NCBI RefSeq assembly: GCF_963675165.1
Contig: NC_087392.1
Span: forward strand, 5,083,942-5,147,941
Direction of reading: 5' to 3'
Length of the DNA: 64,000 nucleotides
Source of the DNA: Halichondria panicea
Taxonomy: Eukaryota; Porifera; Demospongiae; Suberitida; Halichondriidae
Shown: positions 5,138 through 54,694 of the stretch, one piece after another
Numbering within the stretch: position 1 is the stretch's first letter
Layout of the letters: every line of letters starts with the position of its first letter
Made by a program: the position numbers and the translations under genes
The notes under the pieces: generated by a model
Database searches by the model: none
Told to the model about the DNA's origin: nothing
Seen by the model: only the letters and a program-made list of their open reading frames with translations

Positions 5138-5440
5138 ATTACACTGACACCTGGGTGGTACAGCTGCTGCTACCACAATCACAGCGCACACTTGAAGCTC
5201 ACACACTTGCAGCAAAACACGGTCTTATCAATCAGGGACAGGTACGTGGAGTAGATCTATTTGCTATCGGAGTGTACAATGTATATACTTATGAGTGTCC
5301 ACTTATTGCTAGATCTATTACACAGCACACTCAGCCGGGGTGTACACTAAGTATTCGATTTTAGGCGACCCCTCATGCAAAGTAGGGGGATGTAGCATGA
5401 CAGCTGCATTGACTTTGTGACATCTGAAGTTTTTAAAACT
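5138..5440 (+). pseudogene. PC exon-1 3' fragment plus start of intron 1
   Basis: From 5138 the sequence matches PC exon 1 from [17 protein letters not shown] onward, then the donor GTACGTGG and about 180 bp of intron 1. The initiator and signal peptide are missing. The exon part carries QRTLEA as in PC1, while the intron matches PC2, PC3 and PC5 (ATTTGCTATCGGAGTG), so the fragment is itself mosaic. No further PC exon follows before PC1. Confidence 0.85.
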
Positions 5441-5936
5441 GGGTAAATGAGCAAGTTCCCTTGTGCTAATGCCTCTCGGCACTTACCCACTATAACAATT
5501 CGTTGTTGTTCTATTAATCACCACAAACCCACCACCTTATGTTTCCATGGAAACATTTTTGAGTATGCTGTAGCTTGGTCATTCACCTACACATTGGTAT
5601 CATCACAATTTCTTAGAAATGTTCCAATCGAAAGATATTTACATTTAAGTACAGCTACTCACAAATTTGTGGTAATCTACTCTCTAAGCTGGATGCACTG
5701 TATATATACATTACATATATGTAATGAACAGTGTGTGTTCTCCTACCAGCACAGCACAAAATATAACTTGATAATGCTTCTGTACATGTACAAGCATCAG
5801 TCAGCTAGTTTAGTTCACAAAAATTGCATTGGCACATTACAATCGTTACCATGTATACGCATTGTGGTTTAGGGTAGAAATGGTAAAGTGTTTTCTACTA
5901 CAGTGATTAAATCCCCTCCCCCCTCTTTTGTACAGG

Positions 5937-6076
5937 TGGTGGTTGAGGCTGCGGTGGTAGTGAGCGGCACTGACCAATGGAAAGACTTGGAGGATGACGA
6001 AGAGGAGGAGGGGCTTATCGAGGAGACGGACTCAGAAGGGGGCGTGGTCTCAAGCTCTGAATACGAGGATGACTAA
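5937..6076 (+). CDS. Acidic-tail terminal exon of an unidentified gene
   Basis: After a pyrimidine-rich tract and TTTGTACAG, an open stretch reads VVVEAAVVVSGTDQW, then a strongly acidic tail (KDLEDDEEEEGLIEE) ending SSEYEDD and stop TAA at 6074-6076. A near-identical copy lies at 34962-35101; the differences preserve the frame (one Val to Ala). I do not recognise the protein. Acidic C-termini of this kind occur in many nuclear proteins and chaperones. In copy 2 a possible preceding exon is visible at 34685-34727. Here that upstream sequence is absent because the duplicated block begins near 5697, so this copy is probably an orphan terminal exon. Confidence 0.45.
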
Positions 6077-6846: not shown

Positions 6847-6856
6847 TTATATTAGT

Positions 6857-6908: not shown

Positions 6909-7864
6909 CCTATAATTATATAGATAATGTATCCTGGCCAGAATTCAAAGTTCTAAGTAGCTAATAGTTATTTTCAATCTTCAATCTCAATTCAGCATAA
7001 TTATATCCCTGGTAAACGGAGGCTAGGGCTACCAAAATTAATATGCAAAATTATTCACCTATTCTTCATCAGCCTATATTTTAATAACTTAGTATTCAGT
7101 GCATGCGTTCTTTCGCTGCTGAAATAATAAAAAACAACATCACTGTGATGTTTGACATTAAATTTGCATGCAGGAATTGTGCTATTTCTCAACATTGAAC
7201 CACGGACATTTTGTCTGAGAGGCTCTCGAGCCAACATTTGCACCCACGAACATTTCCCGCTATAGCTATGCGGTAATTGTTTGCAAAGCAAACCATGCAG
7301 TCATTGCTGAAACAGCTTGCTGTAAAGACAACCGACTCTTCCCCTGATAATCAATAGATCAACGCAGTTATAAAAGCATAATATGAGTAGACTTGCTGGC
7401 CAGTCCGACATGACATCCACAAGGGAAGGGGGGTTGTTTTATTTCAGCAGTGAAAGAACAAACCTATAGCACACAAAAATGCGGCTTATTAAAGTTAATT
7501 TCAATCAAGCTTCATACTGTACCTCCACTAGGCCTGCATGAGGCAAATATTCCGAATAATTTTGTGAACAATAAGTGCAAATTAAAACATTGTGTGAAAA
7601 AATGGAGAAGAGTAGGGTTGGCAAAAAGTTCGCAAACAAGATTGTGGGTTGGTATAGTCTTTGCATCATTAGTCTTCAGGCCATCCTTACACCTTCTCCT
7701 AGCACACATTCATTCAACCCCATGCAGTGAGTGGGTTGTCAATAGTGTGGGAAAGAATGTTAATGAGATTCATCACATGCATGGGCATCGTATAAAATTG
7801 TTCTTGTATAGCATGATCTAGTGAGTGTGCATGATCCAACTTTTTTGAACAACCAATTGCAAGC

Positions 7865-10800
7865 ATGCCGTTTGATCTTCTGCAAAGAATGAAACATGTG
7901 CTGACATTGGCTGCTATAGTTTCAGTCACATCAGCATCAACCAGGAGCAGGACAGCACTGTTTGACCAGTCTGTTCCCACTGAGCAATACACTGACACCT
8001 GGGTGGTACAGCTGCTGCTACCGCAATCACAGCGCACACTTGAAGCTCACACACTTGCAGCAAAACACGGTCTTATCAATCAGGGACAGGTACGTGGAGT
8101 AGATCTAAGAGTGTATATGCATTTTATTTACTTATGAGTGTCCACTTATTAATTGCTAGATCTGCATGTTACACAGCACACTCAGGGTGTACTTTAATTA
8201 TTCAATGTTAGGCGACCCCTCGTGCAAAGTAGGGGGATGTAGCATGACAGCTGCGTTGACTCTCATTAATATTGACATCTGAAGTTCAACACAATTTTTC
8301 AACCTCCAAAGCTTCATTAAAAAGTGTCCCTTAAAACTGGGTAAATGAGCAAGCTGCGCTCAAGAGAACGTGGCTATAGAAGCCAATATAGAAGCTGTTA
8401 CAATGCAACCGAGTAGTTACAACTGGAATAGATAGAGAGACATGCATGCACACAGACAACACAGTCAGCTTTACTGTATCCCTCATGCGTAGGGCTGTGC
8501 CAAATATTCACAGATTATTTATTCTCGCTTCATCAGCCTATTATTCAACTTCATCAGCCTATTATTAACACCTATTATTCATTATTCTACATATACAGCA
8601 GTGAAATAACACACCTATAGCATAAAAAAATGGGATTTAAGTCGTTACTTTTAATTTCAGCAGCGAAAGAACACACCTATAGCATAAAAAAATGTGGATT
8701 TAAGTCCATTTCAGCAGCAAAAGAACACACCTATATATGTACAGCACAAAAAATTAATATTGATTGCAAAATTAGCCATGTGAATGTGGGCGTGTTCTGA
8801 GCTTAAGGCGTTTCTAAAACAGCTTCAAGAAGAACAATTTCATCTCACTCTGGCACTTAGTCTTTTAGTAGTAGTTTTGTGGTACCCTTCAACCGTATAC
8901 TAGTTTCCTAAAAAAGCCTCACAGTCTTGCATATACAGTAGAGGGGTCAACATTGAGATTTTCAGCTATTGTTTTGTAAAATAACCCAAGGTCACACCTC
9001 TGGTGTATCATCCTCCTCCTCCACCTTATGTCCTTACTGTAAGCCTTAGATTTTGAAATGTCTATTGAACACATCCTTTTAAGCTCATCAACAAGACAAC
9101 ATCACAAATTCCTCCTTGCCTGTAAGCAGCCTGTGGTTTACTATGCGATACCAGCTTGTTGCAAAGGTGCATACATGTAAAAGCACTGTACATATAATTA
9201 CATGCAGGAATGAATGGGTGAGTGTAAAAGCTGGAAGCGGAATGGAATGGAATATGAAACGGAATATGGAACGGAATATGGAATGAGAAATTTAGTAATA
9301 AAAAGAGAGCTGCTGATGGTGCTCTGTATTTTTTTTATTTTTTAGTGTAGTATGACTTAAATAGTGTTACAGAAGCCTTTTTTTATAGACAGCTAATTTT
9401 AGAAGACTATTAATTAATTTTTATGAGGACTAGACTACTCAGTAGCTAGCAACATTAAAAAATTCTGCACATATACGTGTCTACCCTTTGCGAAGTAATT
9501 ATGCTGTGCGTGAAGTGTATATAGCTGTAGAACACTCCAAAGCTACACCTTTCTTCTATCTGCATGCCTGCAAATTATGACCCTTGGTGAAACTTTAAAA
9601 CAATTTGTGCATGTTGAAGAGACACACTGACCATCTTTTATACATGGAGAAATTATTTTCAAAGCGCTAGATCATCTTGGTATCATTTTGCTTAAACTCT
9701 ACTCTATTAATTTTGATTAAGCTGTAAAGACACTTCGCACTTGAATATCCATTGCAAATCCGACATGCTCAATTAATCCAAAAGATAGCATGCTGGCTGT
9801 ATTATTAAATCATCACATGACACCCTATTTTGAAAGAGGATCAACAACTTGCACACACTGTTATACAGTGGCAGTTTCTTTGCCCTATATAGCTATATAC
9901 ACTTCAACTCCACTTTGTTTAATTTGGGCACAGCATAAAAGTATTTAAGTCATACTACACTAAAAAAATACAGAGCACCATCAGCAGCTCTCTAGTTCTT
10001 TTTATTACTAAGTTTATCATTCCATATTCCGTTCCATATTCCATTCCATTCCGCATTCCAGCTTTTACACTCACCCGGAAAGAATATTCTGTATACCATT
10101 GCTAAACTACAAGTCATATGTCGTGATATATATGTTACTCCATTGAACTCCCTTGTATTTCGCACAGTGTGTCTATTAATTACTGTATTTACTTGATTAA
10201 ACGCCCTCCTTGAATAAACGCCCATCTTGTTTAAACGCCCAGGGTAAAAGCTCTGTCTTTGTCAATAAACGCCCATGTATGGGCGTGGCACTGTGGGTGG
10301 AGCTGAAATAGAACGTGGAACCCAGTTGCAAGCATGGCAGCATAGACTTTTTATGATGCATTGATGGCAGAGAGAGAGATACCGACACAGAGGGCACTCC
10401 TATGACTTAAATTTAAGCTGAGACAGCAGCCCAAGAAGAGCACAATAACTGCTGCTGTGCAAGATTTTTGGAGTAGACATAACAATAAACGCCCTCCTGG
10501 ATTAAACGCCCTCCTCGTTTAAACGCCCTTCTCGTTTAAACGCCCTCCTCGTTTAAATGCCTCCTCTAAAGACTTCGATCCGAAATAAACGCCCGGGCGT
10601 TTAATCAAATAAATACAGTATTATTATTCACTTTAAAAAGGTGCACCAGATACCTTTAAAGTGTTCCTGTTCTCTTTACACTGCAGGTAGGCAACCTTGA
10701 GGACTACTTTGCATTCAAGTTACCTGAAACTGATCAAAGGGGAAATCTACACTTGACTGGTACTGGTCAGAAAAATCTCATTTCACAAGCACTTTCGAAT

Positions 10801-13800
10801 GAGCCAAACGTAAAAAAAACAACTATATTATGTATACTATACATGTTCAAGTAACTATATATACATGCATTATGTAAATAGGGTAATAGATATGTTGTCT
10901 TCCTTGATTTAGGTGGGCTCTGTACAGCAGCAAATAGCAAGAAAAAGATACAAGAAAGACTACAGTTATCCAAGCGATCCAAATTTCAGCAAACAATGGT
11001 CTTTGGTGAGATATGTTCTTTTGCTAATGCCAGGCACTTTTGCATCATAATAATTATACACACATACTCTATACATGCAGTAAGCAGACTAATTATGCAT
11101 AGTACTCTTATTGATTTTGCTTGTACATGACCTCCATAGACAATATACAGAGATTTGGGTGTGTATACTTAATGGCTTCGGGTGAGGGGTTATTCATGCA
11201 TTCCAGGTTAACCATGCATGCATTCCTAATACTCCTCCCCATGCAGGTCAACCGTGGTCAAACTGATGGTAGAAAGGGGCTAGACATTAACGTGGAGCCT
11301 GTCTGGCTGCAAGGAATTACTGGGAGTGGTGTGGTTGTGTCTATCATGGATAATGGTGGGTTTGTTGGTATATAGCATCTGGGGATAATGATATATATAG
11401 GCTCTAACAACCCAGTGTCAGTTGGGAAAAGATGTACGTTTCAATAATATACGAGTTTGAACCACTATAATTTATATGTAATAGTTGTGCCATGGTATCA
11501 AGGGTGTGTTGGATTTGTACTACCGAGGGCAGTTTTATGTATTGCCTGAGGGCGCAGCCCGAATGAGGTTAGCAAACACAATACACATGCACGCAGATAT
11601 AGGTAGCTTGTACTATGAATACTATTGATTAGAACCAATTAGAAGCTGTTAATCCAACTAGGTCCTGGCTCTTTTTTCTGCCTATTATGCTTTTGAGTAC
11701 TGCCCCAAATTCAGTCTATTATGCTTGTCGAAAAAACCCCATTATGCCCAATATTATTTAGTAGTTAGTACATGTAGTAACAAAAAAATTTTCTTTTGTT
11801 GTATTGTACATTTGAAACTGAAGATTCAAATCTGTTATATATTATTATAGTGTTCTTAAAAGAGAGGGTCCTTAAAGGGTGGAGGGTGGGCTTTAGGCTG
11901 ACCACAGCCATGTACCCTAGGGTATATGAATGTACATGCACCTAGCAGGGTACATGGGATTTGTACCCTAGAGTACCCTGAGAGTTTCAATGGATATTCC
12001 TTAGTGTCAAGAGCACATCATGGTACAAATATACATATACCCGGCACGCGTGCATACCGCGACATTAACTGATTCTTGAGTTTGTTAGGGCAATAATACC
12101 AACATTTCTTCTGTATATGTATTAGTTATTACATGTATGGCTATGAATTGGCCTGGTAGTAGATTATGGTCAAGCTAGGGCTTTTAAGCCCGAGATCATT
12201 TCATCTATACTGCAATGCAGTCTGCATAATTATACTGAGGTTCCGTTTAGCTTACATAGTTCAGTGTGCCTAAGGCCCTTATACTTTCGGGTAATAGATC
12301 TAGATATTTTGCGTTGGGATTGCAGAATCCAAGAACATCTATAATTATAGGTATTAATTACACTGACTATAATTATAGACAAAATTACCACAAGAATTCC
12401 CCATGGCAGGATTTTCCATTAGCTCAGGCATACACAAGTGAGGTGGGTAGTGTAATAGGAGCTCTCACAACTGTGCCAGAATACTGTCATGCATGCATGT
12501 TTGTGCTGTAGTAGTCTCATTGGCAGCTAGTGATATCATTAATTTCTCTCACACATGCAGGATTGGAGATAACACACCCTGACATTTCTCCGAACTACGT
12601 AAGTTTTCTTGTCAGTGTAGTATTGTCACAACAACACTATACTGACAGAGAAATGCCCGTGTGGGAATGTTGTGATTTTTTAAGACAATTGTGGCTATTG
12701 ATACATTATTGCCAAGCCTGTTTATTTGGCTATTATGAAAGCATACTGAAATAACGTCCGCGTATAATTGTTGTGTAAACACATTTTCAGGATTCCAACG
12801 CTAGTTGGGACTTTGCACAAGGTGATAGTGACCCCACTCCTACCACATACCATGGTGATGAGCCAGACAGACATGGAACCAGCTGTGGAGGAGAGATTGC
12901 CATGGCAAAAAATAACAATCACTGTGGAGTAGGGGTGGCCTATAACTCCAATCTTGGCTGTAAGTATTGTAGACATGCATGTATTAAATTAAGGCTGAAA
13001 GTTGTTTTTAGTTTAAATACACTATTTTTTATATAGTCAACAAAAACTTGTAAATCCTGACATTGCACTTGGGGAGCCATTCATTAATCTCGACCTCCCA
13101 CAGAAGTCATGCTGATTGCATAAGACAATATACATGCAGACATGTTGGCTCCTGCTAGACGAGTATTTTGATTGGGTCTTTTTGCATGCTTTACAATTAT
13201 TGGTCTCTTTCTCTTGACTTGTATACAGGTCTCAAGATTGACTATGCTAGCATGACGGACTCCATTGAAGCAAGTTCTCTTGGCTATAAAAACAACTATA
13301 TCCAAGTTTACAGCAACAGTTGGGGACCAAATGACAAAGGTTTCATTGTAGAAAAACCAGGAATACTGCTTGAAAATGCATTAATAAATGCAGTCAAAAA
13401 GGTAATTATGCCTCGGTGCACATGCGGAAGCGAGATATACGGTAGTGTGTTTGTGGGTGTGTCTGTGTGCGTCTGTATAGACTACTACAACTGCTCAATG
13501 ATCAATGAAGTGCAAGGAAGAGTTTCTATAGGCTATAGATTTTAATTCGTCGATTTGCAAAATAATGCTTAGTTCTCAAGTTATGCCTAGTTTTGCTTAC
13601 TTGGAATGCTATTCAGCCTTTTTAGAAGAGTATCTTGTCCATGGAGTGTTGGGTCTCTACTTAGTAGTTAGCTCTGCACTAGAACGCTAGCTATTGGTAG
13701 CTGCAACAGTGAGAAGAGAGCTGCACTGCTGATGCAGCCATTAATTTTAGACTTGGACTTTTGATCAATCCGTTGAATGATATTTGTCGAGCAATGGAAA

Positions 13801-16800
13801 GGGTAGCATAATAGGCTGCTAGGCCTCTTAAGGGTGCTCCCCGAAACAAAAACAAAAACACAAAATAAAAACACTCGCTAGAAATGAGAGGTCAATAAAG
13901 TATAAATAATAGTTAGACACTGTTTAGGAAGTTTCTACATGATTTAGAAGCCCAAAGGGCTGGTTGTAGCATCCCGAACACAGTGAGGGTTTTACTAGCG
14001 CTGAGGACTTCTAAATCATGTGGAAATGTCCTAAATAGTGTCTAAGCATTTTAGATCATAGCAACCATGAGTATTTAGCCAATCAGATTTGAATATTCTT
14101 ATCTAATCTTTGCTACATGATTTTTCTAAGTGAAGTACATGATTTTCTAAGTAAGTACATGATTTTCTAAGTTGGATAGAACACTTCCTTTAGCCAATCT
14201 CATTGCAGCTAAGGTGTGACTGGAGCGCTACATTAAAACTGTTGAGAGACTACTACATATAGGCCTACAACAGTGCTAGGTAGACAGTTCCACAGAAAAC
14301 AACTATTTACAAAAAAAGAATATCTGTAACTCTAGCATGCTTACAAAGTAATGCGTATTTGAGTGATCTTTTAGGATGGACGTTGGGGTATAAAAATTTT
14401 TAACCCGACGATCATTACCCACTCTTAGAGTTTCCCTGCGATTCTGGATTCCGCCTGCATGCAACAAAATTAATTAATGCAAAAATGTTCATCATGGCAT
14501 AATGTGCGTATAAAAGCTATTAGTATAGCTTTACGTTATGTAGATTTGACACCTCCATCAGCACCCGCGGTGCTTTCATTTATTTAGCACTCACACCAAA
14601 TAGTCCTACTCTGTTTATAGGGTCGTGATGGGAAGGGCTCCATTTTCGTGTGGGCTGCTGGGAATGGTGGATGGAACTATGATTCTTGTGCTGCTGATGG
14701 CTATTCTTCCAGCATCTACACTATTGCAGTAGGGTCAGCAGATCAAACTGCTGGTCAAGCAAGCTACGATGAACAGTGTGCTGGAAAAATGGTCGTCACT
14801 TATTCATTCAACTCAAGAACATTCTCAGAAGATGGCTCTTATGACCCTTACGACCAAATTGTGAGTAATATTATTATATTCATTAGACTATAAGTGCAAC
14901 ATATAATTATATGCAGTACACCACGACTCTGAATGGGGAATGTACAGACGACTTTACTGGCACTAGTGCTTCTGCACCTCTAGTATCAGGAGTCATCACT
15001 CTGGCACTGCAGGCAAAGTGTGTATATACTCCTTTGCATTTTTTTCCCCCCATTTTTTTTAATAATAATACACACACTCAGTATAGTTCAATGTACAGTG
15101 TAATAATTATGCTAGTTAGTTCAATGTTCAAGGATCAGTGGTCTGTTATCAGTGACTCACTGATCACTAAATCGATTGGGAGGGAAGTTGCTTTTGAGGT
15201 CTTGCCTGCAGTTGAACGAGCTCCTCTGATGGCTTGGATTGAAGATATTAGGAGTGAAAACGAGAGGCGGCATCTCAGCCAATTCATTGTGGAGGTATAG
15301 GGTTGGTCCCATTTTGCGGCCAGGAGGGTGGCAAGACGCTTGTAAGTGGATGTTGAAGCGGGGCCAAGGCCTCCTGTTGATGATATCATGAGTGGTGTGA
15401 AGGAAGAGTGCTCTATTTCTTGGATTCGACTTTCATAAGCACATTTCTTTACCATTTCGTGTTTTCTGTAGGGGTTGGTCTGTCTGTTTGAGGCTGCATG
15501 GGGGTTAAAGACGCGCATGTCAAAGTAGGTGCGTTCGAAGCGTCCTCCCCATAGCCCATTTGCGGCAATGTCTAGGCGAGCTCCTTCTGTGATGTTTGCT
15601 TTTGCATGGAATAAGTTCCTTTCAGAAAATACGGCTATAATTATGGTCAATAATTGCATGATTTGATAAAAGAGTAGTTCTACATGTTAGCTAGCTACAT
15701 ATTTTATCATGCTATAACTAGTGGCTTCAAATGCATGTGATTTTGTAGCCATGAGCTGACGTGGAGAGATGTGCAGTACTTGCTAGTTTACACATCCAAT
15801 ACTGACCCTCTCATTGATGGGGAATGGACGATGAACAGGGCAGGGCGTAAAATCAGTCACAAGTTTGGCTTTGGAGCTATTGACGCTGAGGCATTTGTAA
15901 CTCGAGCCAGAAATTGGATCACTGTTCCTCCACAGATTTCCCAGACCTTGACAAGCCGCCAAACCTCTGGGTAAGCCTGTACATACCTATAGTAAACCGA
16001 TTTTTGCGGGCTGATAAGTGTGCAGCAATAAAGGGAAATAATTATACTCACTATAATTATTTTATGCACTTTCACATTTAGAAATGCTCGCTTTGGACAA
16101 CCTCTTACAATGCAATTTATAGTATCGAACACGACCTCAGGCATTCAGTTCCTGGAGCATGTGGTTTTGACGGCTTCATTAAGAATAGAATATGTACGAA
16201 AATACAAAGTCACGGACTATTATACGTTCATTAAGTATGAAGCCATAGATGGAGCTTCAGTGAAACGCTGGTTACAAGACCCTCATCCTCGCAGGGGGGA
16301 CATCATGATTGAACTCACTTCACCACAGGGAACAACTTCAACTCTTCTTCCATACAGAAATTATGATTTTGTCAATTCTGACGATGAAGGATATGCTTAC
16401 CACCTTTGGCCCTTCATGTCTGTTCACTATTGGGGGGAGAATCCGGTCGGAACTTGGACAATGACTGTTACGTTCAAGTCTTCCAGTGGTTATGTTAGTG
16501 TGTCTGATATGGACCTTGCACTTTATGGTACGTCCAGTACACCTCAAGCTGTAGCAAATATTCCGATGGTGTGTGACGAAGCATGTGCTAGAGGTTGCTA
16601 TGGAGATGGTCCCAATGCGTGCGATGTGTGCAAAGATTTTCGTATTGTATCTACGCTGGAATGTGTCACTACTTGCCCAAATAATACATATGTATACAGG
16701 GGATCGTACTGCAATGGTACCAAAACAGATTCTGTAGTTACTAATGCTATTGGTACTACTTCAATGGGTGATGACATAACAGTATCGGAATCAAGTTCTA

Positions 16801-17033
16801 TAGTTACTAATGCTATTGGTACTACTTCAATGGGTGACGACATAACAGCATCGGAATCAAATGCTATTGCTATTGGTACTTCAATGGGGCTGGTCGGTCT
16901 GTTTATCCTAGTGTGTATAGTGGTCACATGCATTGTGGTATGCTTGTGTGAAAAGAAGAAGAATGAACAGGGAAATCGACAAAGATATCGTGTACTTCAG
17001 TCGGTGGATGACACTTCATCTTTTCCTGTATAA
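7865..17033 (+). CDS. PC1: furin/kexin-like proprotein convertase, 814 aa
   Basis: Eleven exons: 7865-8089, 10687-10809, 10913-11005, 11247-11355, 12561-12598, 12791-12959, 13229-13401, 14621-14860, 14917-15017, 15749-15970, 16082-17033. All junctions are GT-AG and phases close to 815 codons. The signal peptide may start at Met9 ([17 protein letters not shown]). The S8 prodomain ends in RKR (128). Catalytic residues are Asp182 (SIMDNG), His224 (DRHGT), Asn325 (AAGNGG) and Ser407 (GTSASAP), with furin-like spacing. The P domain carries RGD (569-571). A Cys-rich repeat, Ser/Thr stalk, TM (about 760-787) and 27-aa tail with YRVL follow. Furin-family enzymes cleave secretory precursors after basic residues in the Golgi and endosomes. 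Odd points: Asn instead of Asp after the catalytic Asp, and a stalk holding a 66-bp tandem duplication. Confidence 0.92.
9216..10076. mobile_element. Long-TIR Mutator-like element in PC1 intron 1
   Basis: About 145-bp inverted ends: GGGTGAGTGTAAAAGCTGG at the left and CCAGCTTTTACACTCACCC at the right. They contain GGAATGGAATATGG arrays and the shared AGCTGCTGATGGTGCTCTG. Flanks are GGAATGAAT (9207-9215) and GGAAAGAAT (10077-10085), a 9-bp duplication with one mismatch. PC2 intron 1 holds the empty site (near 21825). Nine-bp duplications with long TIRs starting GGG fit Mutator-like elements. No transposase is inside. Confidence 0.8.
10181..10620. mobile_element. MITE with AAACGCCC repeats
   Basis: Inverted ends TACTGTATTTACTTGATTAA and the near-complement TTAATCAAATAAATACAGTA. 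The interior has about ten degenerate copies of TTTAAACGCCCTCCTCG or AATAAACGCCC, mostly at both ends. It sits in PC1 intron 1 and is absent from the introns of PC2, PC3 and PC5. Confidence 0.75.
11906..12025. repeat. Dispersed GGGTACATGGGATT repeat
   Basis: A roughly 110-bp unit with short inverted GTACCCT/AGGGTAC motifs followed by TGAGAGTTTCAATGGATATT. Copies recur at about 20340-20450 and 47805-47905 in the PC2 and PC5 upstream spacers. Here it lies in PC1 intron 4. Confidence 0.55.
13913..14045. mobile_element. Fold-back MITE TTAGACACTGTTTAGGA (copy 1)
   Basis: Arms TTAGACACTGTTTAGGAAG and the near-complement CTAAATAGTGTCTAA enclose a centre with AGAAGCCCAAAGGGCT. Similarity to the copy at 41696-41827 extends another 160 bp on the right (TTTAGCCAATC), so the full element may reach about 14205. 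It lies in PC1 intron 7; the other copy is in PC3 intron 10. Confidence 0.75.
16731..16862 (+). repeat. 66-bp tandem duplication in PC1 stalk
   Basis: Two adjacent in-frame units encode [20 protein letters not shown] and a near-copy with ITASE, between the Cys-rich repeat and the TM segment. The relic at 44117-44968 has one unit. PC2, PC3 and PC5 have a different stalk (VAIAVGTSMG after a KNIT- or SSNSL-type segment). Confidence 0.85.
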
Positions 17034-19934: not shown

Positions 19935-20469
19935 CTGTAGTATACGCAGAGATCTCAAGAAAAGGGATTGTTAAAACTTTCCTCTCACTTGAAATGCACA
20001 TAAATAAATCATACTGCATGTATAACAACGTATAACTGTACAAGTAATAGTTGTACCATGGGTTGTGATGCATGCATCATGCCATATATACTGAGCACTG
20101 GATTGCTTTGATCTGCCCACTCACTGGGCAACAAGTATTGCTGTTATCCAACCCATTTACAACTGAGTAGTAGTAAACACTCTTTGTCACTTTGATCCCT
20201 GCCATGCATGCATGTGCACATTTTGTGTGGGTGTGCTTGCACTTAACAAACCACATCTACAACTTCACACAACCCAGTTCCAATGTGGTCCGGTAGTTTT
20301 GATTGGATACTGAAGAATAATCTTCACAATGTGATCCTGCATGACCACAGCCTATGTACGCACCCTAGCAGGGTACATGGGATTGTACCCTGGAGTATCC
20401 TGAGAGTTTCAATGGATATTCCTTAGTGTCAGAGCACATCATGGTACAGACCATACTATAAACTATACT

Positions 20470-20615: not shown

Positions 20616-20770
20616 AGGTCAATTTAGAGTACATTCACGGCTTCAAAAAGTTCCCCGTGCAGTTGTCAATAGCATGCAGTAGTGAAAGAATGTTAATGAG
20701 TTCATCACCTGGGCCCAGTTCTGCTGCAAATGAGTAGCTACGAGTGTGAATGATCTGAACAACCCCAAGC

Positions 20771-41695: not shown

Positions 41696-41827
41696 TTAGA
41701 CACTGTTTAGGAAGTTTCTACATGATTTAGAAGCCCAAAGGGCTGGTTTTAGTATCCCGAACGCAGTGAAGGTTCTACTAGCCCTGAGGACTTCTAAATC
41801 ATGTGGAAACTTCCTAAACAGTGTCTA
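41696..41827. mobile_element. Fold-back MITE TTAGACACTGTTTAGGA (copy 2)
   Basis: Arms TTAGACACTGTTTAGGAAG and CTTCCTAAACAGTGTCTAA are perfectly complementary over 19 bp, closer to intact than the copy at 13913. Similarity to that copy continues to about 41965. It lies in PC3 intron 10. Confidence 0.85.
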
Positions 41828-43160
41828 AGCATTTTAGATCATAGCAACCATGAGTATTTAGCCAATCAGATTTGAATGTTCTTATCTAATCTTTGCTACA
41901 TGATTTTCTAAGTGAAGTACATGATTTTCTAAGTTGGATAGAACACTTCCTTTAGCCAATCAAATTACAGTATTTATGGCAAACATGATCTAAAGTATAC
42001 CATTTTTGTGGGCTGATAAGTGTGCAGCAAGCAATAATTATTATAACTGTTTTATGCACTTTCACATTTAGAAGTGCTCGCTTTGGACAACCTTTTACAA
42101 TGCAATTTACAGTACCGAACACGGCCTCAGGTGTTCACTTCCTGGAGCACGTGGTTTTGACGGCTTCATTAAGAATAGAATATGTACGAAGATACACAAT
42201 CACGGACTATTATACGTTCATTACGTATGAAGCCATAGATGACGCTTCAGTGAAACGCTGGTTGCTAGACCCTCATCCTCGCAGGGGGGACATCATGATT
42301 GAACTCACTTCACCACAGGGAACAACTTCAACTCTTCTTCCATACAGAAATTATGATTTTGTCAATTCTGACGATGAAGGATATGCTTACCACCTTTGGC
42401 CCTTCATGTCTGTTCACTATTGGGGGGAGAATCCAGTCGGAACCTGGACAATGACTGTTACGTTCAAGTCTTCCAGTGGTTATGTTAGCGTGTCTGATGT
42501 GGACCTTGCACTTTATGGCACGTCCAGTACACCTCAAGCTGTAGCAAATATTCCGATGGTGTGTGACGAAGCATGTGCTAGAGGTTGCTATGGAGACGGT
42601 CCCAATGCGTGCGATGTGTGCAAAGATTTTCGTATTGTATCTACGCTGGAATGTGTCACTACTTGCCCGAATAATATGCTTGTATACAGGGGATCGTACT
42701 GCAATGGTACCAAAACAGTATTACCTTTAGTTGCTATTACTTCTAAAAACATAACGGTATCTTCAAATTCTTTAGTAAATGTTGCTATTGCTGTTGGTAC
42801 TTCAATGGGGCTGGTCGGACTTCTTGTCCTAGTGTGTATGGTGGTCACATGCATTGCGGTATACATGTGGAGAAAGAAGAAGAATGAACAGGGAAATCGA
42901 CTAAGATATCATGTGCTTCAATCGAAGGATGACACTTCATCTGTTCCTGTATAAGATTGGACTAAACATTTTACAGACTTTATACGTGTAGAACTAATTA
43001 ATGTATAATCCTTCCATGCATTTATATGATTTAGAGTACCTAAATTCAAGATAGATATGTGATTTCGTGCCTAATTTTAAAAAGAACATGTTGAGAAGAA
43101 AAAAATTAATGGTCAAATTAAAGTACAAAGTATAAAATGGATTTATATACATGCACCCTC

Positions 43161-44968
43161 GAGGAGAGATTGCCATGGCAAAAGATAACAATCAGTGTGG
43201 AGTGGGGGTGGCCTATATAACTCCAATCTTGGCTGTAAGTATTGTACCCATCCTTAAAATTGATTCAACTGTCCCTAAATTTGACTGTACAGTATAGACA
43301 TGCATGCATGAGTGCATGTACCGTATAGCGGGTAATTTTCGGGGGACAAAATATTCGTGGTTCAGCAATATTGAGACATTTCGTGGGTAATATTTTCGTG
43401 GTTGCTGCTTGCAATGTAGGTAAAGGTAGGCAAGGTCGCTTCATTTGTGGGTAAAATATTCGTGGTCAGACCTTCAACCACGAATACCACGAATATTTTC
43501 CCCACGAAAATTACCGCTATATACACTAAAAGTACGTTTAAACACTATTTTTACTATATAATTATGGTCAACATAAACTGACGTTGATCCACTTGGGCAG
43601 GCCATGCACTTTCAATGAGCAATCTGGCCTCCCACAAAATTCATAAGACTATGTATATATATACATGCACACATGTTGGCTCGTGCTAGACTGCAGGGTC
43701 TTTTGCATGCATGCATGCTCAATTAATTGGTCTCTCTCTCTTTTGTATACACAGGTCTTAAGGTTGACCTTGCTAGCGTGACAGACTCCATTGAAGCAAG
43801 TTCTCTTACACTGTCAACTAAAAGTGTGCATGCATGCAATACACGATATTTTAGTGTGCTTAGCACACTTCATTTTTTACAATATAGCTATAAAAACAAC
43901 TGTATCCAAGTTTAATACACAGCAGCAGTTTGGGACCAGGTGACAAGGGTTCCATTGCCAGAAATTGGATCACTGTTCCTCCACAGATTTCCCAGACCTT
44001 GACAAGCCGCCAAACCTACGGGTAAGCCTATACGTACCCGATTTTTGTGGGCTGATAAGTGTGCAGCAATAAAGCAATGATTATACTCACTATTTTATTC
44101 ACTTTCACATTTAGAAGTAGTGCTCGCTTTGGACAACCTCTTACAATGCAATTTATAGTATCGAACACGACCTCAGGCATTCAGTTCCTGGAGCATGTGG
44201 TTTTTACGGCTTCAGAATATGTACGAAGATACACAATCACGGACTATTATAGGTTCATTAGGTATGAAGCCACAGATGGAGCTTCAGTGAAACGCTGGTT
44301 ACAAGACCCTCACCTTCGCAGGGGGGACATCATGATTGAGCTCATTTCACCACAGGGAACAACTTCAACTCTTCTTCCATATGATTTTGTCAATTCTGAC
44401 GATGAAGGATATGCTTACCACCTTTGGCCCTTCATGTCTGTTCACTATTGGGGGGAGAATCCGGTCGGAACCTGGACAATGACTGTTACGTTCAAGTCTT
44501 CCAGTGGTTATATTAGTGTGTTTAATGTGGACCTTGCACTCACGTCCATGCAGTACACCTCAAGCTGTAGCAAATATTCCTCAGGTGTGACAAAGCATGT
44601 GCTAGAGGTTGCTATGGAGACGGTCCCAATGCGTGTGATGTGTGCAAAGATTTCGTATTGTATCTACGCTGGAATGTGTCACTACTTAATATGTTTGTAT
44701 ACAGGGGATCGTACTGCAATGGTATACCAAAACAGATTCTGTAGTTACTAATGCTATTGGTACTACTTTAATGGGTGACGACATAACAGCATCGGAATCA
44801 AGCTATCGGCACTTCAATGAGACTGCTTGGACTGCTTGCCCTAATTGTGTGTATAGTGGTCACATGCATTGTGGTATACAAGTGGAGAAAGAAAAAGAAT
44901 GAACGATGAATTCGACTAAGATATCACGTGCTTCAGTCGGTGGATGACACTTCATCTTTTCCTGTATA
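43161..44968 (+). pseudogene. PC relic b, truncated and rearranged
   Basis: Partial exon 6 (43161-43235, with the CCTATATAACTC insertion) is fused to the PC3 3' flank. Exon 7 begins at about 43756 but is interrupted by an insertion (43808-43886), carries a stop, and then joins the last part of exon 10 (about 43958-44021). Exon 11 is at 44117-44968 with a lost RNY segment, deletions and several frameshifts in the Cys-rich repeat. The stalk text ([19 protein letters not shown]) matches PC1 rather than PC2 or PC3. Exons 1-5, 8 and 9 are absent. Confidence 0.88.
43318..43524. mobile_element. MITE, TATAGCGGGTAATTTTCG ends
   Basis: ACCGTATAGCGGGTAATTTT at the left; AAAATTACCGCTATAT at the right. 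Repeated TATTCGTGG and CCACGAATA inside. It lies in the intron-6 relic of PC relic b and resembles 38642-38772 in design. Confidence 0.75.
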
Positions 44969-46398: not shown

Positions 46399-47370
46399 TT
46401 ATTCTTCTCTGAGCAGGGCGGTTGGGTTAGAGCACTTGCATAACTCCACAACTCTCTTCAGTAGTCCACGCATGAAGCCAGCAAACCATCATGGAAATAA
46501 ATATAATTCTTGGCTTGCATGGGTTTTACCGGTTTGCTAACACTATAATATAGTTGGAGTCTTTATGCAATTATACAAGTCGACCACAGTTCTATAATGC
46601 TTTCTAGATTATGAGTATATATACACCTCTGCCCCAATGAAGCCACTGTCCCCGGAGTCCATCAGGTGAGGGAAGGGGCTCACGTTCAACACAGAGTAAC
46701 CTGTATCAAAATAGCGTAATATACCCTTCCTTCCACAGAGCTCAAACTAGAGAGCTTTATATATATACTATAGAAATGACCATTTTTTTGTAATGAGTAT
46801 ATCAACATTTATAATTATGCATGGACGTTTTCAGGAATGCACTCCTGACGCTTGTAATCAATGGTTCGGGGACTCTTTCAGTTGCCATAACTTAATAAAG
46901 AGACCTTTTAAATGGTGTCAAACAAAGTTCACATTTGGGATTACTAATATTGGCCTGATAGATCTAGATCTTATAGCCCATGGTCCAAGGCCGAAAAATG
47001 ACAAAATTAATTATAACCCCCACCAAATTTTGGATTTAAACACGTATCATGAAAGGTAAGTATTTTAAGATTTTGAAATAGTATCAATATTTTAATACTA
47101 AAGTTATGGCTGTTAAAACTACACCCTCCTGTGTGTTTAAACCATAACTTAAATCCCATGCATGTATTCTGTATTCAACTGATCTACAATACAGCGTATA
47201 AAGTCTCACTGAAACGGCCCACCAAGCACTCCTCATAAAACAGTACAGCCAACAGAGCATCGTCTTGTATAGCCTGCACATGGGGAAAATCATATCTACA
47301 TGTAATATAACAGTACTGTATAGGTAGCTTACTAAGTCTCAGCTTAGCATGGGACAGTGCCATAGCCTTC
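46399..47370 (-). pseudogene. MCMDC2-like remnant C
   Basis: Minus-strand exon equivalents 47333-47370, 47210-47273, 46627-46700 and 46399-46485 (stop TAA). It shares with remnant B the 8-nt loss in the first of these. Its last exon has GG in place of the acceptor AG (CATGATGG before TTTGCTGG). The SRRVRGSD exon is missing. The last-exon frame is otherwise intact and preserves the empty site of the retrotransposon seen in remnant B. Confidence 0.8.
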
Positions 47371-47930
47371 CTGTAGTATACACAGAGAGATCAAGAAAAG
47401 GGATTATTAAAACTTTCCTCTCACTTGAAATGCACATAAATAAACCATACTGCATGTATAACAACGTATAACTGTACAAGTAATAGTTGTACCATGGGTT
47501 GTGATGCATCATGCCATATACTGAGCACTGGATTGCTTTGATCTGCCCACTCACTGGGCAACAAGTATTGCTGTTATCCAACCCATTTACAACTGAGTAG
47601 TAGTAGTAAACACTCTTTGATCCTGCCATGCACACATTTTGTGTGGGTGTGCTTGCACTTAACAAACCACATCTACAACTTCACACAACCCAGTTCCAAT
47701 GTGGTCCGGTAGTTTTGATTGGATACTGAAGAATAATCTTCACAATGTGATCCTAGTGTCACAGTAGTGATCTATAAAAAAGCTAACCCTGCATGACTAC
47801 AGCCAATGTACGCACCCTAGCAGGGTACATGCATGGATTGTACCCTGGAGTATCCTGAGAGTTTCAATGGATATTCCTTAGTGTCAGAGCACATCATGGT
47901 ACACCATACTATAAACTATACTCAGAGGAG

Positions 47931-48064
47931 GTAGTCTACGTACAGGCGCGGTGCAGCTCAGTAATTATCCGCCCACGCACCGCCCATGTCATATGTTTGC
48001 TGAGACTCTGAGATCAGAGGCTAATTGCTTGAGCTGCACCGCGCCTGTCGGACCTCCTCAGAGA
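47931..48064. mobile_element. MITE ending GAGGAGGT (copy 3)
   Basis: Counterpart of 20470-20615 upstream of PC5, with the inner arms GGCGCGGTGCAGCTCA and TGAGCTGCACCGCGCC fully complementary. The shared position shows insertion before the PC2/PC5 unit duplicated. Confidence 0.75.
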
Positions 48065-48215
48065 GGTCAATTTAGAGTACATTCACGGCTTCTAAAAGTT
48101 CCCCGTGCAGTTGTCTGAAAGAATGTTAATGAATTCATCACCTGGGCCATGGGCCCAGTACAGTTCTGCTGCAAATGAGTAGCTACGAGTGTGAATGATC
48201 TGAACAACCCCAGGC

Positions 48216-51200
48216 ATGCCGTTTGATTTTCTGCAAAGAATGAAACATGTGCTGACATGGGCTGCTATAGTTTCAGTCACATCAGCATCAACCAGGAGCA
48301 GGACAGCACTGTTTGACGAGTCTGTTCCCACTGAGCAATACACTGACACCTGGGTGGTACAGCTGCTGCTACCGCAATCACAGCTCACACTTGAAGCTCA
48401 CACACTTGCAGCAAAACATGGTCTTATCAACCAGGGACAGGTACGTGGAGTAGATCTATTTGCTATCGGAGTGTACAATGTATATGCACTTATGAGTGTC
48501 CACTTATTGCTAGATTTATTACACAGCACACTCAGCCGGGGTGTACTTTAAGTATTCGATTTTAGGCGACCCCTCATGCAAAGTAGGGGGATGTAGCATG
48601 ACAACTGCATTGACTTTGTGACACCTGAAGTTTTTAAAACTGGGTAAATGAGCAGGTTCCCTTGTGCTAATGCCTCTCGGCATGTTTGCTTCGCTCAAAA
48701 AGTATAGATTGTTACAATGTTATGTTACGAAATAAATTGAACTTCCACACATTAATCAAGAGTCACAGTTATAGAAGGGGAGCATAAAAAGGACGGAATG
48801 TTAAAAAGGGGCCTGGGCTTGAATGCGCATGCGCAGAAAAAGGGGTGCGTCTGCAAAAGGTTAAAGTTCGCAATGGCTGCTGCAGCTTCTGGCAGCACAG
48901 CTTGCAGCTCTTTTCTGACTCTCGTAGCTAACAAATGATACAGGCAACGCTTTAGTGTAAGGCTAACTCACAACTTAAATAGAAACTTGTGCGAGCAGAT
49001 GATGCTAGGAACGGTTCTGAAGAGACTGCAACAGCCTTCACACTAGCCATTATGGACAACAAAGCTTAGTTAGCAAATCCACAAATCAAAATAAGAGAAC
49101 GTGGCTAGAAAGAAGCTGGTAGTTTTTGGTGCATACAACCGTTGAGCAGTTACAGGTGGAACAGACAACTTTATATACCGTATCCTTTGTGCGGAATAAT
49201 TAGTTTTTTGCATTCTTGTAATACTGAGTGGCATGTGTTGTTACATATACTGATTACATGCAGGAATAAATATTCTGTACCATGCATTGCTAAGCTACAA
49301 GTTATGTTACTCCATTGTTCACACAGTGTGTCTATTAAAAGATAATTGTTGTGTTACATGCATGCAGCAATGAATATTCTGTAAGCTACAAGTCATATAT
49401 TTATGTACTCCATTGAGCTCCCTTGTATTTCGCACAGTGTTTATTTAATGGTTAACCTCACTTCCTGTCTAGCTAGATTGTATCCAAAAAGGTGCACCAG
49501 ATAGATACCTTTAAAGTGTTCCTGTTCTCTTTACACTGTAGGTAGGCAACCTTGATGACTACTTCGCATTCAAGTTACCTGAAACCGATCAAAGGGGAAA
49601 TCTACACTTGACTGGTACTGGTCAGAAAAATCACATTTCACAAGCACTTTCAAATGAGCCAAACGTAAAAAACAACAACTAATGTCTAGTCACTCATGTA
49701 TTATGTATGGTTATTCATTATTTTGTCTTCCTTGATTTAGGTGGGCTCTGTACAGCAGCAAATAGCAAGAAAAAGATTCAAGAAAGACTACAGTTATCCA
49801 AGCGATCCAAATTTCAGCAAACAATGGTCTTTGGTGAGATGTTAGCATATATATAGATCACATGCATGCACACACTCAATACAATTAATAGTATACATGC
49901 AGTGAGCAGACTGATCAGTTTAATTATGCCGATAATAATTATAGTACGCTTAATTGTACATAGTGTCCATAGACCTTATTATTCTACAGAGATTGGGGTG
50001 TGTATACTTAAGGGCTTTGGGGGATTATTCATGCATTCCTAATACACCCAGGTGGTCAACCCCATACACTCCTATATAACACTCCCAGGTCAACCGTGGT
50101 CAAACTAGCGGTAGAAAGGGGCTGGATATTAACGTGGAGCCTGTCTGGCTGCAAGGAATCACTGGGAGTGGTGTGGTCGTGTCTATCATGGATGATGGTG
50201 GGTTGATAGCATCTGGGGATAGTAATATATAGGCTCTAACAACCCAAGGTCAGGAAAATGTGGCAATGCATGATATACGAGTTTGAACCGCTTATATATA
50301 TACATGTATTATTTAAGAAGTATACCAGGCGCGCGACTGATTCTTGAGTGCAATAATACCAACATGTATGATGTTATTACATGGTTATGTATTAGTTAAT
50401 GTACAGTGTAGAGGGGTTTATGACAGTAAGACACTGTTTCCATGTAGTTCCCTAGTCTCATGAATCAGATCTTATCAACTAAATAATTATTGGCGTGGTA
50501 GTAGATTGTGGTCAAGGGCCTTGATCATTTATACTATACATTGTACAAGGTGCGCTGCCTGCATTGTCTACTACAAAGCAGTCTGCATAATTATACTGTG
50601 GTTCCGTTTAGCTTGCGTAGTTCAGTGTGCCTAAGGCTTTTGGGTAATTATATCTAATAGGTATTCTGCACGATGTAGGTTGAATTGCAGATTCCTGGAA
50701 CATCTATAATTATTAGGTATTGCTAGAATTCCCCATGGCAGGATGTCCTGTTAGCTCAGGCATACAACTGTTTACACAAGTGAACTGATGTGGATAGTGA
50801 AATAGGAGCTCTCACAACTAGGTCTTGCCCAATTATGCTCAAAATGTTGCCTATTAGTCAAGTCTCCAAGTCTCATGCATTGTACCAATTAGTTTTTACC
50901 TAATTTCTTTAATTTATTACCTAATTTTATTGAGTCTCAATAAAAATCATCAACGAGAATTATACTGCAACATCAACATAATCTTTTAAGGAACTATATA
51001 TTGGTGAAAGAAATCTTAGATAATTATTGCCAAAGGCTAATTGCTTGAGCTGCACGCCTGTCGTACCTCCTCTGCACGTGGACCATGTGCTCAGAAGTGT
51101 AAAGGTCAACTATTAGCATTACTCATGCTATTGAGGCTTAGTGCTTCTATAAATACTTTCTACCAAAATTTGGTAAAATAGGCTAACTATTAGGCTGGCA

Positions 51201-54200
51201 TAATGCTCAATGCTCCACGCACCTATTAGTCTCAAAATTATGCTAGCATAAATTGGGCAAGGCCTAGAATGCTGTCATGTTTGTGCTGTAGTAGTCTCAT
51301 TGCCAGCCAGTGATATTAAGTTTTCTCTCACATGCAGGATTGGAGATAACACACCCTGACATTTCTCCGAACTACGTAAGAAATGCCGCGTGGGAATATT
51401 GTGGTTTTTAAAACAATGGTTGCTATTCAGTAAAATACACATTCATTTGGCAATCCTTAAATCAGGTGGTGTTTATTTGGCCATTCTAATAATAATTTGA
51501 AAGCATACTAAAATAACGTCTACGTCTAATTTTTGTTTTCAGGATTCCACTGCTAGTTGGGACTTTGCACAAGGTGATAGTGACCCCACTCCTACCACAT
51601 ACTATGGTGATGAGCCAGACAGACATGGAACCAGCTGTGGAGGAGAGATTGCCATGGCAAAAGATAACAATCAGTGTGGAGTGGGGGTGGCCTATAACTC
51701 CAATCTTGGCTGTAAGTATTGTTACCCATGCATTCTTAATCATGCAACTGTCCCTATACAGTATGCATGAGTGCATGTATTTTAAGATTACTGAAAGTTG
51801 TTTTACAGTATTATTGGGGCGAGCCCTGAGGTTCGTCCCATGCATAGTAGCGACGATACTGCAGGAGAGCTCAGCGACCGGATATCTGTCTGGTGTCTGC
51901 ATGTCTGCATGTCTGTCTCTCAGTTTAAGTTTTTAGCATGACGATTGCTGTATTTTAGCGTGACGATTGCTAACGATCATTTGTATTACAAGCAATTACA
52001 TGAGCAAGGCATTAATATTCTTGGATGAAACTGATACAGCTCAGCAAATAAGGCAATGAGGGCCAGGCAATGGCGTTTCCTATGTGCTAGCAAGGCTAAG
52101 GGAAGTTTGACAACAAGTAGGAGCTAATGAGACAGAAGCTCGTCTGTCGTCAAAAGGTTCGAATTAAAGGGAAGAGAGAATTGCAGTTAGAGAGACCTTT
52201 AGGAAACAGCAAGTGATTACTACTCACTACAACTTCTCTTCTCTAAGGGAGGCTCGCCCCACACAATGCTCTCAGCATTCCCCTAGTAATTATTAGCCCG
52301 AGGCGCGGCATGTATGGGTTATAGTAGTCGATCAGTCTGTCTGTCGTTCTGTGTATTTTGAGTCTGTTCACCTGGGTGCGATAGTGCTGTGTTTCTACCA
52401 TGGACAGCCTCAACACAACACGATAGTAGTTTTAAATTTGGCAGTTAAAGCTTCGATTAAAAAGCAAGTAAGAAGCTCAGAAGCGTAATTGAACCTGTTG
52501 GGCCTAGATGTAACACGTGGCTTTGACTTTAGGCTATAGCCACACTAAACCCTAAAGTAACGCCAATCTTACTCTATTGTAAATATTTTTACTTTGTTCT
52601 GACATATTGATCCACTTGGGCAGGCCATGCACTTTCAATGAGCAACCCCGGCCTCCCACAGAAGTCATGCTGATTGAATAAGACAATATACGTACATGCA
52701 CACAGTTTGCACGCTTCACAAAATTAATTGGTCTCTCTCTCTCTCTCTCTCTCTCTCTTGTCTATACACAGGTCTCAAGGTTGACTTTACTAGCATGACA
52801 GACTCCATTGAAGCAAGTTCTCTTGGCTATAAAAACAACTATATCCAAGTTTACAGCAACAGTTGGGGACCAAATGACAAGGGTTTCATTGTAGAAAAAC
52901 CAGGAATACTGCTTGAAAATGCATTAAAAAATGCAGTCAAAAGGGTAATTTATTTAGCACTTACACACCAAATAATGTGTATAGAATGTCTGACTCTGTC
53001 TATAGGGTCGTGATGGGAAGGGCTCCATTTTTGTGTGGGCTGCTGGGAATGGTGGATGGAACTATGATTCTTGTGCTGCTGATGGCTATTCTTCCAGCAT
53101 CTACACTATTGCAGTGGGGTCAGCAGATCAAACCGCTGGTCAAGCAGGCTATGATGAACAGTGTGCTGGAAAGATGGCCGTCACTTATTCATTCAACTCA
53201 AGAACATTCTCAGACGATGGCTCTTATGACCCTTTCGACCAAATTGTGAGTAATAATAACATAATTACAAGTGCGTAACTGTAACATATAATTATGCAGT
53301 ACACCACGACTCTGAATGGGGAATGTACAGACGACTTTACTGGCACTAGTGCTTCTGCACCTCTAGTATCAGGAGTCATCACTCTGGCACTGCAGGCAAA
53401 GTGTGTTACCTTACTACTCCTTTGCATGCATGCATGGAATATTGATAGAAAATACGGCTATGGCTGATAATTGGCTTGATATAGAAAACACACATGCATG
53501 CTATATTTATCAGGCTCTAGTGTTCAAATGCATGATTTTGTAGCCATGAACTGACGTGGAGAGATGTGCAGTACTTGCTAGTTTACACATCCAACACTGA
53601 CCCTCTCACTGATGGGGAATGGACGATGAACGGGGCAGGGCGTAAAATCAGTCACAAGTTTGGCTTTGGAGCTATTGACGCTGAGGCATTTGTAACTCGA
53701 GCCAGACATTGGATTACTGTTCCTCCACAGATTTCCCAGACCTTGACAAGCCACCAAACCTATGGGTAAGTACGTACCTATAGTATACCAGTTTTGGGGG
53801 GCTGATAAGTGTGCCGCAAGATTATAACTATTTTATGCATTTTCACATTTATATAGAAGTGCTCGCTTTGGACAACCTCTTACGATGCAATTTACGGTAC
53901 TGAACATGGCCTCAGGTGTTCACTTCCTGGAGCACGTGGTTTTGACGGCTTCATTAAGAATAGAATATGTACGAAGATACACAATCGCGGACTATTCTAC
54001 ATTCATTAAGTATGAAGCCACAGATGGATCTTCGGTGAAACGCTGGTTACTAGACCCTCATCCTCGCAGGGGGGACATCATGATTGAACTCACTTCACCA
54101 CAGGGAACAACTTCAACTCTTCTTCCATACAGAAATTATGATTTTGTCAATTCTGACGATGAAGGATATGCTTACCACCTTTGGCCCTTCATGTCTGTTC

Positions 54201-54694
54201 ACTATTGGGGGGAGAATCCGGTCGGAACTTGGACAATGACTGTTACGTTCAAGTCTTCCAGTGGTTATGTTAGTGTGTCTGATATGGACTTTGCACTTTA
54301 TGGCACGTCCAGTACACCTCAAGCTGTAGCAAATATTCCTCAGGTGTGTGACAAAGCATGTGCTAGAGGTTGCTATGGAGATGGTCCCAATGCGTGTGAT
54401 GTGTGCAAAGATTTTCGTATTGTATCTACGCTTGAATGTGTCACTACTTGCCCAAATAATACACTTGTATACAGGGGATCGTACTGCAATAGCACCAAAA
54501 CAGTATCATCGAATTCTTTAGTTGCTACTGCTGTTGGTACTTCAATGGGGCTGGTTGGACTGCTTGTCCTAGTGTGTATAGTGGTCACATGCATTGCGGT
54601 ATACCTGTGGATAAAGAAGAAGAATGATCGAGGAAATCGACTAAGATATCATGTGCTTCAGTCGGTGGATGGCACTTCATCTGTTCCTGTATAA
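48216..54694 (+). CDS. PC5: furin/kexin-like proprotein convertase, 776 aa
   Basis: Exons 48216-48440, 49542-49664, 49741-49833, 50089-50197, 51338-51375, 51543-51711, 52772-52944, 53006-53245, 53300-53400, 53544-53765 and 53857-54694, giving 777 codons with stop. Motifs: signal [17 protein letters not shown], prodomain [37 protein letters not shown]-domain RRGD and WTMTVTF, Cys-rich [13 protein letters not shown], the shortest stalk of the intact set, TM ([19 protein letters not shown]) and tail RYHVLQS. It is a presumed type I membrane convertase of the secretory route. Introns 4 and 6 hold MITEs absent from PC2, and the intron-6 acceptor is preceded by a (CT)12-like tract. All key residues are present. 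Confidence 0.93.
50818..51270. mobile_element. MITE, CTAGGTCTTGCCCAATTATG ends, with nested fragment
   Basis: Left CTAGGTCTTGCCCAATTATG and right CATAAATTGGGCAAGGCCTA are imperfect complements. A piece of the GAGGAGGTACGACAGG family (about 51033-51075) is nested inside. It lies in PC5 intron 4. A related, partial version is in PC1 intron 4 at about 11658-11760. Confidence 0.7.
51815..52260. mobile_element. MITE, GGGGCGAGCC ends, PC5 intron 6
   Basis: TTGGGGCGAGCC at the left and GGCTCGCCCC at the right. The interior carries CTGCATGTCTGCATGTCTGT tandem text. PC2 and PC3 lack it at this position. The next sequence (52285-52540) is an older intronic repeat shared with 24460-24850 and 40220-40540. 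Confidence 0.65.

Follow-up and report, generated by a model that had tools for sequence, protein, structure and literature searches.

Proprotein convertase gene sets are usually small in animals. The convertase section of Hammond et al. 2019 (PMC6850559) gives seven for mammals, three for Drosophila and six for the sponge Amphimedon queenslandica, where 12 initial convertase hits included six with a full catalytic triad: furin, PC7 and four novel PCs (NPC-A to NPC-D). Here we describe a set of convertase genes in another sponge, Halichondria panicea, which lies partly within a 64,000-nucleotide stretch of contig NC_087392.1 (called C16 below; C16:5083942-5147941), the whole of which we refer to as the window. 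Judging from sequence comparison, this is very probably a lineage-specific tandem array of type I membrane-anchored convertases that grew by block duplication and was then mixed by exchange.

By description only, the array genes resemble the novel PCs of Amphimedon. As far as the convertase section of that account goes, both are transmembrane convertases apart from furin and PC7, both form several paralogues in one sponge, and an RGD motif is found in the P domain of some NPCs, as in the array genes. Unlike Amphimedon, with its six full-triad convertases, H. panicea has 11 unbroken 11-exon genes, and the same section reports no tandem array, alternating flanks or chimeras.

Furin (PCSK3) shares with the array genes a pro-domain, an S8 domain, a P domain with RRGD and a membrane span. 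Its tail presumably also carries tyrosine and acidic motifs, as theirs do. However, the array genes have one furin-type stretch, furin D191 aligns to a proline in the C16 genes, and their pro-domain site ends in KK. Kexin (Kex2) is membrane anchored and likewise combines S8 and P domains, but the array genes differ from it in having a furin-type repeat, and they match it less well than they match furin.

Tandem clusters are also described for the sponge Ephydatia muelleri. The passages of PMC7385117 on gene clusters report identical intron-exon structure among duplicates, as seen here, and attribute the duplicates to slippage and unequal crossing-over. The clusters named in those passages belong to other families (integrins, an actin, a leukotriene receptor), and the words protease and peptidase are absent from the main text of that paper. 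Among the titles and abstract openings listed in searches of the open-access literature, none reports a convertase tandem array or a glycosylphosphatidylinositol (GPI)-anchored convertase. Because sponges are known to duplicate genes in tandem while keeping their exon structure, the array is not unprecedented in kind; what is unusual is the detail of its block structure.

Array content and upstream flanks

The exons of one gene, PC1, were modelled by hand and transferred to the other copies by tblastn across 94 kb (the window and stretches upstream of it). Coordinates below are window positions unless a contig is named: position v is C16 position 5083941 + v, and zero or negative values lie upstream of the window. 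The array is approximately 76 kb long, extends upstream past the window edge and contains five intact genes (PCa, PCb, PC1, PC2 and PC5), the frameshifted PC3, two relics and small fragments. The first-pass annotation had listed three intact genes, a frameshifted gene, two relics and an exon-1 fragment in the window. We recovered all of these except for one of the relics, and the list was incomplete: the window also holds an exon-6 scrap and a 3'-tail fragment, and just upstream of it are PCa, PCb and a second relic. The tandem array it described is there, but is longer than had been stated and repeats as blocks of two genes.

Upstream of the window lie PCa (C16:5062557-5068268; v -21384..-15673), relic A (v -14874..-9015) and PCb (C16:5077310-5083629; v -6631..-312). 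Within the window, all on the + strand, come PC1 (7865..17033, 814 aa), PC2 (20771..27386, 795 aa), PC3 (36792..42954), relic B (43163..44966) and PC5 (48216..54694, 776 aa). PC1, PC2 and PC5 are intact 11-exon genes, all three with open frames. The PC1 exons occupy 7865-8089, 10687-10809, 10913-11005, 11247-11355, 12561-12598, 12791-12959, 13229-13401, 14621-14860, 14917-15017, 15749-15970 and 16082-17033. PC3 has 11 exons with intact splice sites and a one-base frameshift in exon 7 (40678-40849), the end of which we shifted by one base to fit GT..AG; the frameshift falls in a run of G, and the remaining exons of PC3 are each open in their own frame. Relic B keeps pieces of exons 6 and 7 followed by the end of exon 10 plus exon 11, and its frame is broken.

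The common intron positions proposed earlier are confirmed, with the same 11 exons in six array genes and GT..AG ends on the predicted introns of these six and of a dispersed copy on contig C9. The copies resemble each other far more than chance would allow, with blastn blocks of up to 4.6 kb that include introns and have a printed E of 0.0. It had also been said that much intron text aligns, which is so in that these blocks span introns, but the blocks are only approximately 75-93% alike.

To describe the 5' flanks, we compared the 900 bases before each ATG; identities are over aligned columns with gaps not counted, unless BLAST is stated. The flanks form two classes in the strict order I-II-I-II-I-II, with type I ahead of PCa, PC1 and PC3 and type II ahead of PCb, PC2 and PC5. 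Identity is 95-99% inside a type (86-99% in the main BLAST blocks, gaps counted) and 48-50% across types, i.e., about the level of unrelated sequence. For example, the PC1 flank (type I; 6965..7864, + strand) is 96.0% identical to that of PCa, 98.9% to that of PC3 (35892..36791, +) and approximately 49% to those of PCb, PC2 and PC5, while longer BLAST stretches with gaps counted give 89.8% to PCa and 93.5-98.7% to PC3. The match continues upstream of the PC3 flank, where 34741-36223 is 98.65% identical to 5716-7189 (1483 columns). The PC2 flank (type II; 19871..20770, +) is 95.0% identical to that of PCb, 95.4% to that of PC5 and 48-50% to type I (91.9% for the PC2 flank with gaps counted), and the PC5 flank (47316..48215, +) is 99.3% identical to that of PCb (by BLAST with gaps counted, 97.0% over 2906 columns).

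The two types are alike only across the last ~110 bases before the ATG, where type I flanks contain the stretch GTATAAAA, by eye absent from type II. When the genome (an assembly of 131 Mb in 39 contigs) was searched with approximately 750 bases of each flank (7000-7750 for type I), the long matches came only from the array among the 40 candidates scored of 136 and of 799. Each search also found a short dispersed repeat outside the array, and the type I match ahead of PC3 is interrupted by a gap of ~115 bases. Gene starts are regularly spaced, 29.2 and 28.9 kb apart for type I and 27.4 and 27.4 kb apart for type II, which together with the alternating flanks indicates that the array is three copies of a two-gene block of ~28 kb. 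Some of the type II upstream region resembles stretches 3' of PCb and PC5 (~70-81%), as would be expected for the junction of an older tandem duplication.

Three fragments complete the inventory. The exon-1 fragment (5140..5241, +), the 3' part of that exon, belongs to a duplicated junction; its 34 aa match the last part of PC1 exon 1 at 100%, and the DNA of its region is 95.3-96.5% identical to PC2, PC3 and PC5 (344 columns). The exon-6 scrap 3' of PC2 (27595..27648, +) is positioned like the start of relic B after PC3, and 26430-27718 (PC2 end plus scrap) is collinear with 42010-43286 (PC3 end plus relic B start) at 93.5%. The 3'-tail fragment (33039..33187, +), an exon 11 end with membrane span and tail in a broken frame, has a counterpart at C16:5058843-5058986, ~3.6 kb ahead of PCa.

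Conflicting segment histories

Different parts of the same gene point to different relatives. In the exon 11 tree, PC1 clusters with the two relics (bootstrap 100), whose own exons 11 are 98.6% identical to each other. The 3' flank of PC1 is 97.3% identical to that of relic A (376 columns), whereas its 5' flank is nearest PC3, so PC1 looks chimeric, with a type I 5' end and a relic-type 3' end. PC2 looks chimeric as well: its 5' end is type II, while its 3' end and 3' flank are closest to type I genes (the flank 85.7% to PC3 over 405 columns, 62% to PCa). Directly after relic B, two 7/28-base minisatellite arrays (CCAACTG-type) form an inverted repeat at 45006-45851, and past them 45852-46406 is 85% like 17051-17542, downstream of PC1.

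Topology tests covered segments A and B, exons 7-9 and exons 10-11, with segment C left out. By the approximately unbiased (AU) test, a PC2+PCa grouping is rejected for segments A and B (p <=1.6e-4) and a PC2+PC5 grouping for exons 10-11 (p 0.018). A Sawyer-type run test gave values below 0.05 after correction for 14 of 15 pairs (PCb-PC1, 0.12), but this test ignores the clustering of variable sites and is used as supporting evidence only. Unequal crossing-over and gene conversion appear to be the best account of the conflicting segment histories, in agreement with the ongoing homogenisation suggested in the first pass.

We envisage the following order of events. A tandem duplication would first have produced two genes, the second acquiring a different upstream region. 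These two live genes and a third, now a relic in the outer blocks, would then have been copied to give three blocks of ~28 kb. Later unequal crossing-over and gene conversion would have mixed the copies, leaving PC1 and PC2 chimera-like, and PC3 would have been broken by one base.

Enzyme features, selection and competing accounts

PC1 has four Pfam domains, all above cut-off: S8 pro-domain (45-130), Peptidase_S8 (173-466), P domain (565-632) and Furin-like (660-712), with scores of 160 bits for PF00082, 58 bits for PF01483 and 53.5 bits for PF16470. Its closest solved relatives by phmmer are furin (E ~1e-113) and then kexin (E ~1e-87), and a second stretch in the P domain also matches furin in the alignment. 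The catalytic D, H and S and the oxyanion N are kept in all 13 aligned models (PC3 and the relics left out). Translations read by eye suggest a signal peptide and, near the C terminus, a hydrophobic span followed by a polar tail, with Y-x-V-L in all five intact array genes and S-E-D-D in three of the five. We class the array genes, by sequence, as proprotein convertases with a predicted membrane anchor, which upholds that part of the earlier description. Its furin-type label needs correcting: these do not appear to be furins in the strict sense because Pfam finds only one furin-type stretch in PC1, and a gene with many such repeats, by eye, sits on contig C7.

Each enzyme would be made as a zymogen that processes itself at the basic pro-domain site RKR-F/Y-KK, which precedes the mature start in the aligned C16 genes (PCa has KN for KK). 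Its substrates would be secretory precursors, cut after basic residues, and its single membrane span and short tail would retain it in the late secretory or endosomal pathway, where this cutting would take place. Using furin numbering from the phmmer alignment of PC1 to furin, we examined D154, D258 and D306, which we take to be the pocket acidic residues for basic P1 and P2. All three are present in PCb, PC2, PC5 and the C9 copy. The D154 equivalent is N solely in PC1 and the D258 equivalent is N solely in PCa, with D in the other 12 of 13 models in each case.

The array genes are under purifying selection. Across the 15 pairs of six array genes (PC3 without exon 7), dS is 0.075-0.106 and omega, the dN/dS ratio, is 0.24-0.59. 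From the array genes to C9, dS is 0.18-0.21, and the description of the array as young holds in a relative sense. Codon-model tests used the five intact genes and C9, with log-likelihoods only; they assume that the {1.0} notation fixes omega alone, and their tree is only approximate because the copies recombine. Against omega = 1, twice the log-likelihood difference was 44.6 for the whole coding sequence, 33.0 for exons 4, 5, 6, 8 and 9, 12.2 for exons 1-3, 10.2 for exon 10 and 9.8 for exon 11. In exon 7 (0.4), omega = 1 was not rejected. Summed over pairs of the five intact genes, pN/pS is 0 for exons 5 and 9, 0.14 for exon 8 and 0.81 for exon 7; exon 3 has 16 replacements and zero silent changes, but its number of sites is too small to interpret.

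Several points weigh against our reading of the array as a block-duplicated, recombining set of working convertases. The last two residues of the pro-domain site are KK (KN in PCa) instead of KR, the roles of the Y-x-V-L and S-E-D-D motifs are our assumption, and PC1 and PCa may be weak or altered in activity because each has lost a pocket aspartate equivalent. The type II flank holds a dispersed repeat found on many contigs (~20140-20448 in the PC2 flank), and flank alternation is a natural by-product of block duplication, which alone shows no regulatory design. As for exchange, the PCa 3' flank is only 62-66% identical to those of PC2 and PC3, and the immediate 3' flank of relic B, the minisatellite, is unlike that of PC1 (41%). 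The PC2+PC5 grouping for exons 10-11 was not rejected by the Kishino-Hasegawa (0.09) or Shimodaira-Hasegawa (0.10) test, and exons 7-9 reject none of three constraints by AU.

The strongest competitor, which we consider a real though lesser possibility, is neutral turnover of copy number in a genome that readily duplicates genes in tandem, such that the copies are redundant and one or two would be enough. The passages of PMC7385117 on Ephydatia muelleri describe many gene clusters whose tandem duplicates have the same intron-exon structure, decay is visible in the fragments, relics and PC3 frameshift, and three of the four novel PCs of Amphimedon are minimally expressed according to the convertase section of PMC6850559. 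However, the five intact array copies have open frames, pairwise omega below 1 and intact triads.

Somewhat less likely is diversification of specificity, in which copies were retuned at the substrate cleft to give a repertoire of convertases. The array has 58 copy-specific replacements, two of which are the pocket changes in PC1 and PCa, and exon 7, where neutrality was not rejected, bears part of the cleft. Its pN/pS is not above 1, though, and relaxed constraint or early loss of function fits equally. PC1 has a replacement excess of borderline significance (Fisher p 0.057), and PCb instead has a deficit (p 0.0099, before any correction for five tests). The neofunctionalisation raised in the first-pass annotation is only hinted at by two copy-specific pocket changes and exon 7.

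An assembly artefact, i.e., allelic haplotypes or falsely duplicated contigs placed end to end where there are really one or two genes, is very improbable because dS within the contig is 0.075-0.106, unrelated flanks alternate and two copies are chimera-like. Taken alone, the 97-99% stretches shared by blocks 1 and 3 would fit false duplication and so also count against us: the relic start region is 97.3% identical (520 columns) and the region from the relic end to the PCb/PC5 5' end 97.0% (2906 columns). However, the genes of these blocks differ more (PCa-PC3 segments 90.4-95.8%, dS 0.099; PCb-PC5 93.4-95.4%, dS 0.080), neighbouring genes have unrelated 5' flanks, segment histories conflict, the middle block is differently arranged, and neither the window nor the four adjoining stretches contain a single N.

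Other convertase loci, neighbouring features and significance

The genome contains 10 Wnt matches from roughly four genes, as fits an animal, whereas 14 control genomes gave none. A P-domain search of the genome gave 20 matches: eight in the array (two of them relics), six on C4, two on C7, one on C9, two on C5 and one on C14. The two neighbouring C5 matches look like a single gene, and the C14 match is part of a very long frame. Searching the genome at the DNA level with exon 11 of PC2 located 12 places: the eight array copies, the C9 copy, a pair of tail fragments and one short match on C7. Wherever it could be resolved, the structure of the C9 gene, one C7 gene (C7a) and the six C4 loci conforms to the 11-exon plan. 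C9, C7a and four C4 genes are open throughout, which with the five array genes makes 11 unbroken 11-exon models; in C7a, we saw no furin-type repeat by eye. Of the other two C4 loci, C4a3 stops early and its exon 2 was not found, and C4b1 has ambiguous first exons and exon 10/11 junction. Within a frame of 815 codons, the second C7 gene (C7:1816-1823 kb) carries numerous cysteine repeats by eye, and it seems to fit furin better than the array genes do.

The C4 loci form two clusters of three in opposite orientation (C4:2384-2414 kb and C4:2524-2544 kb), and the four unbroken genes have mutual dS of 0.15-0.21. Five of the six loci end in a tail-less hydrophobic stretch, by eye like a GPI signal, in two cases after Ser/Thr-rich repeats. 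Their pro-domain site is KK-M/I-V-KK, free of arginine. Separately, approximately 10 S8 subtilase domains (e.g., at C8:6960858, C3:273133, C1:10969161 and C2:1365524) are each nearly whole in a single open frame, unlike the exon-split convertases.

The window contains other features. A sulfotransferase-like open frame (PF13469, PF00685) lies on the - strand between PC2 and PC3 (27800-28504). Pieces resembling a LINE reverse transcriptase by eye lie 3' of PC1 (17589-18848, - strand), and a Pfam scan of one of them (17586-18101) gave no match. Frames for a THAP domain and a DDE transposase, accompanied by a 100-base tandem repeat (60708-61956, + strand), are probably a DNA transposon remnant, and an Rfam scan of the window gave no matches. 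Starts of a gene for a small secreted-looking protein, near 3393 and 59471, are duplicated at the two ends of the window (~1.3 kb in two pieces, 94%). We considered this protein as a convertase substrate but dropped the idea, having seen no convincing processing site by eye.

Animals use convertases to bring many secreted signals, receptors and matrix proteins to maturity. H. panicea has 11 unbroken genes of one type plus two more convertase genes (the furin-like gene on C7 and that on C5), mostly from two local expansions, which raises the question of why so much processing is needed. The array also offers a clean natural example of blocks that were duplicated in tandem and later underwent exchange. 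It places near-identical enzymes behind two unrelated upstream regions, which might drive different expression, and promoter effects could therefore be separated from protein effects. More speculatively, and on present evidence improbably, one ancestral convertase may have given rise to a recombining repertoire that varies on three axes: upstream class (type I with a TATA-like box near the ATG, type II without), S1/S2 pocket aspartate changes, and anchor class (tailed span on C16, C9 and C7; GPI-like on C4). If that were true, precursors in this sponge would be processed by copies of one enzyme that differ in expression, placement and specificity.

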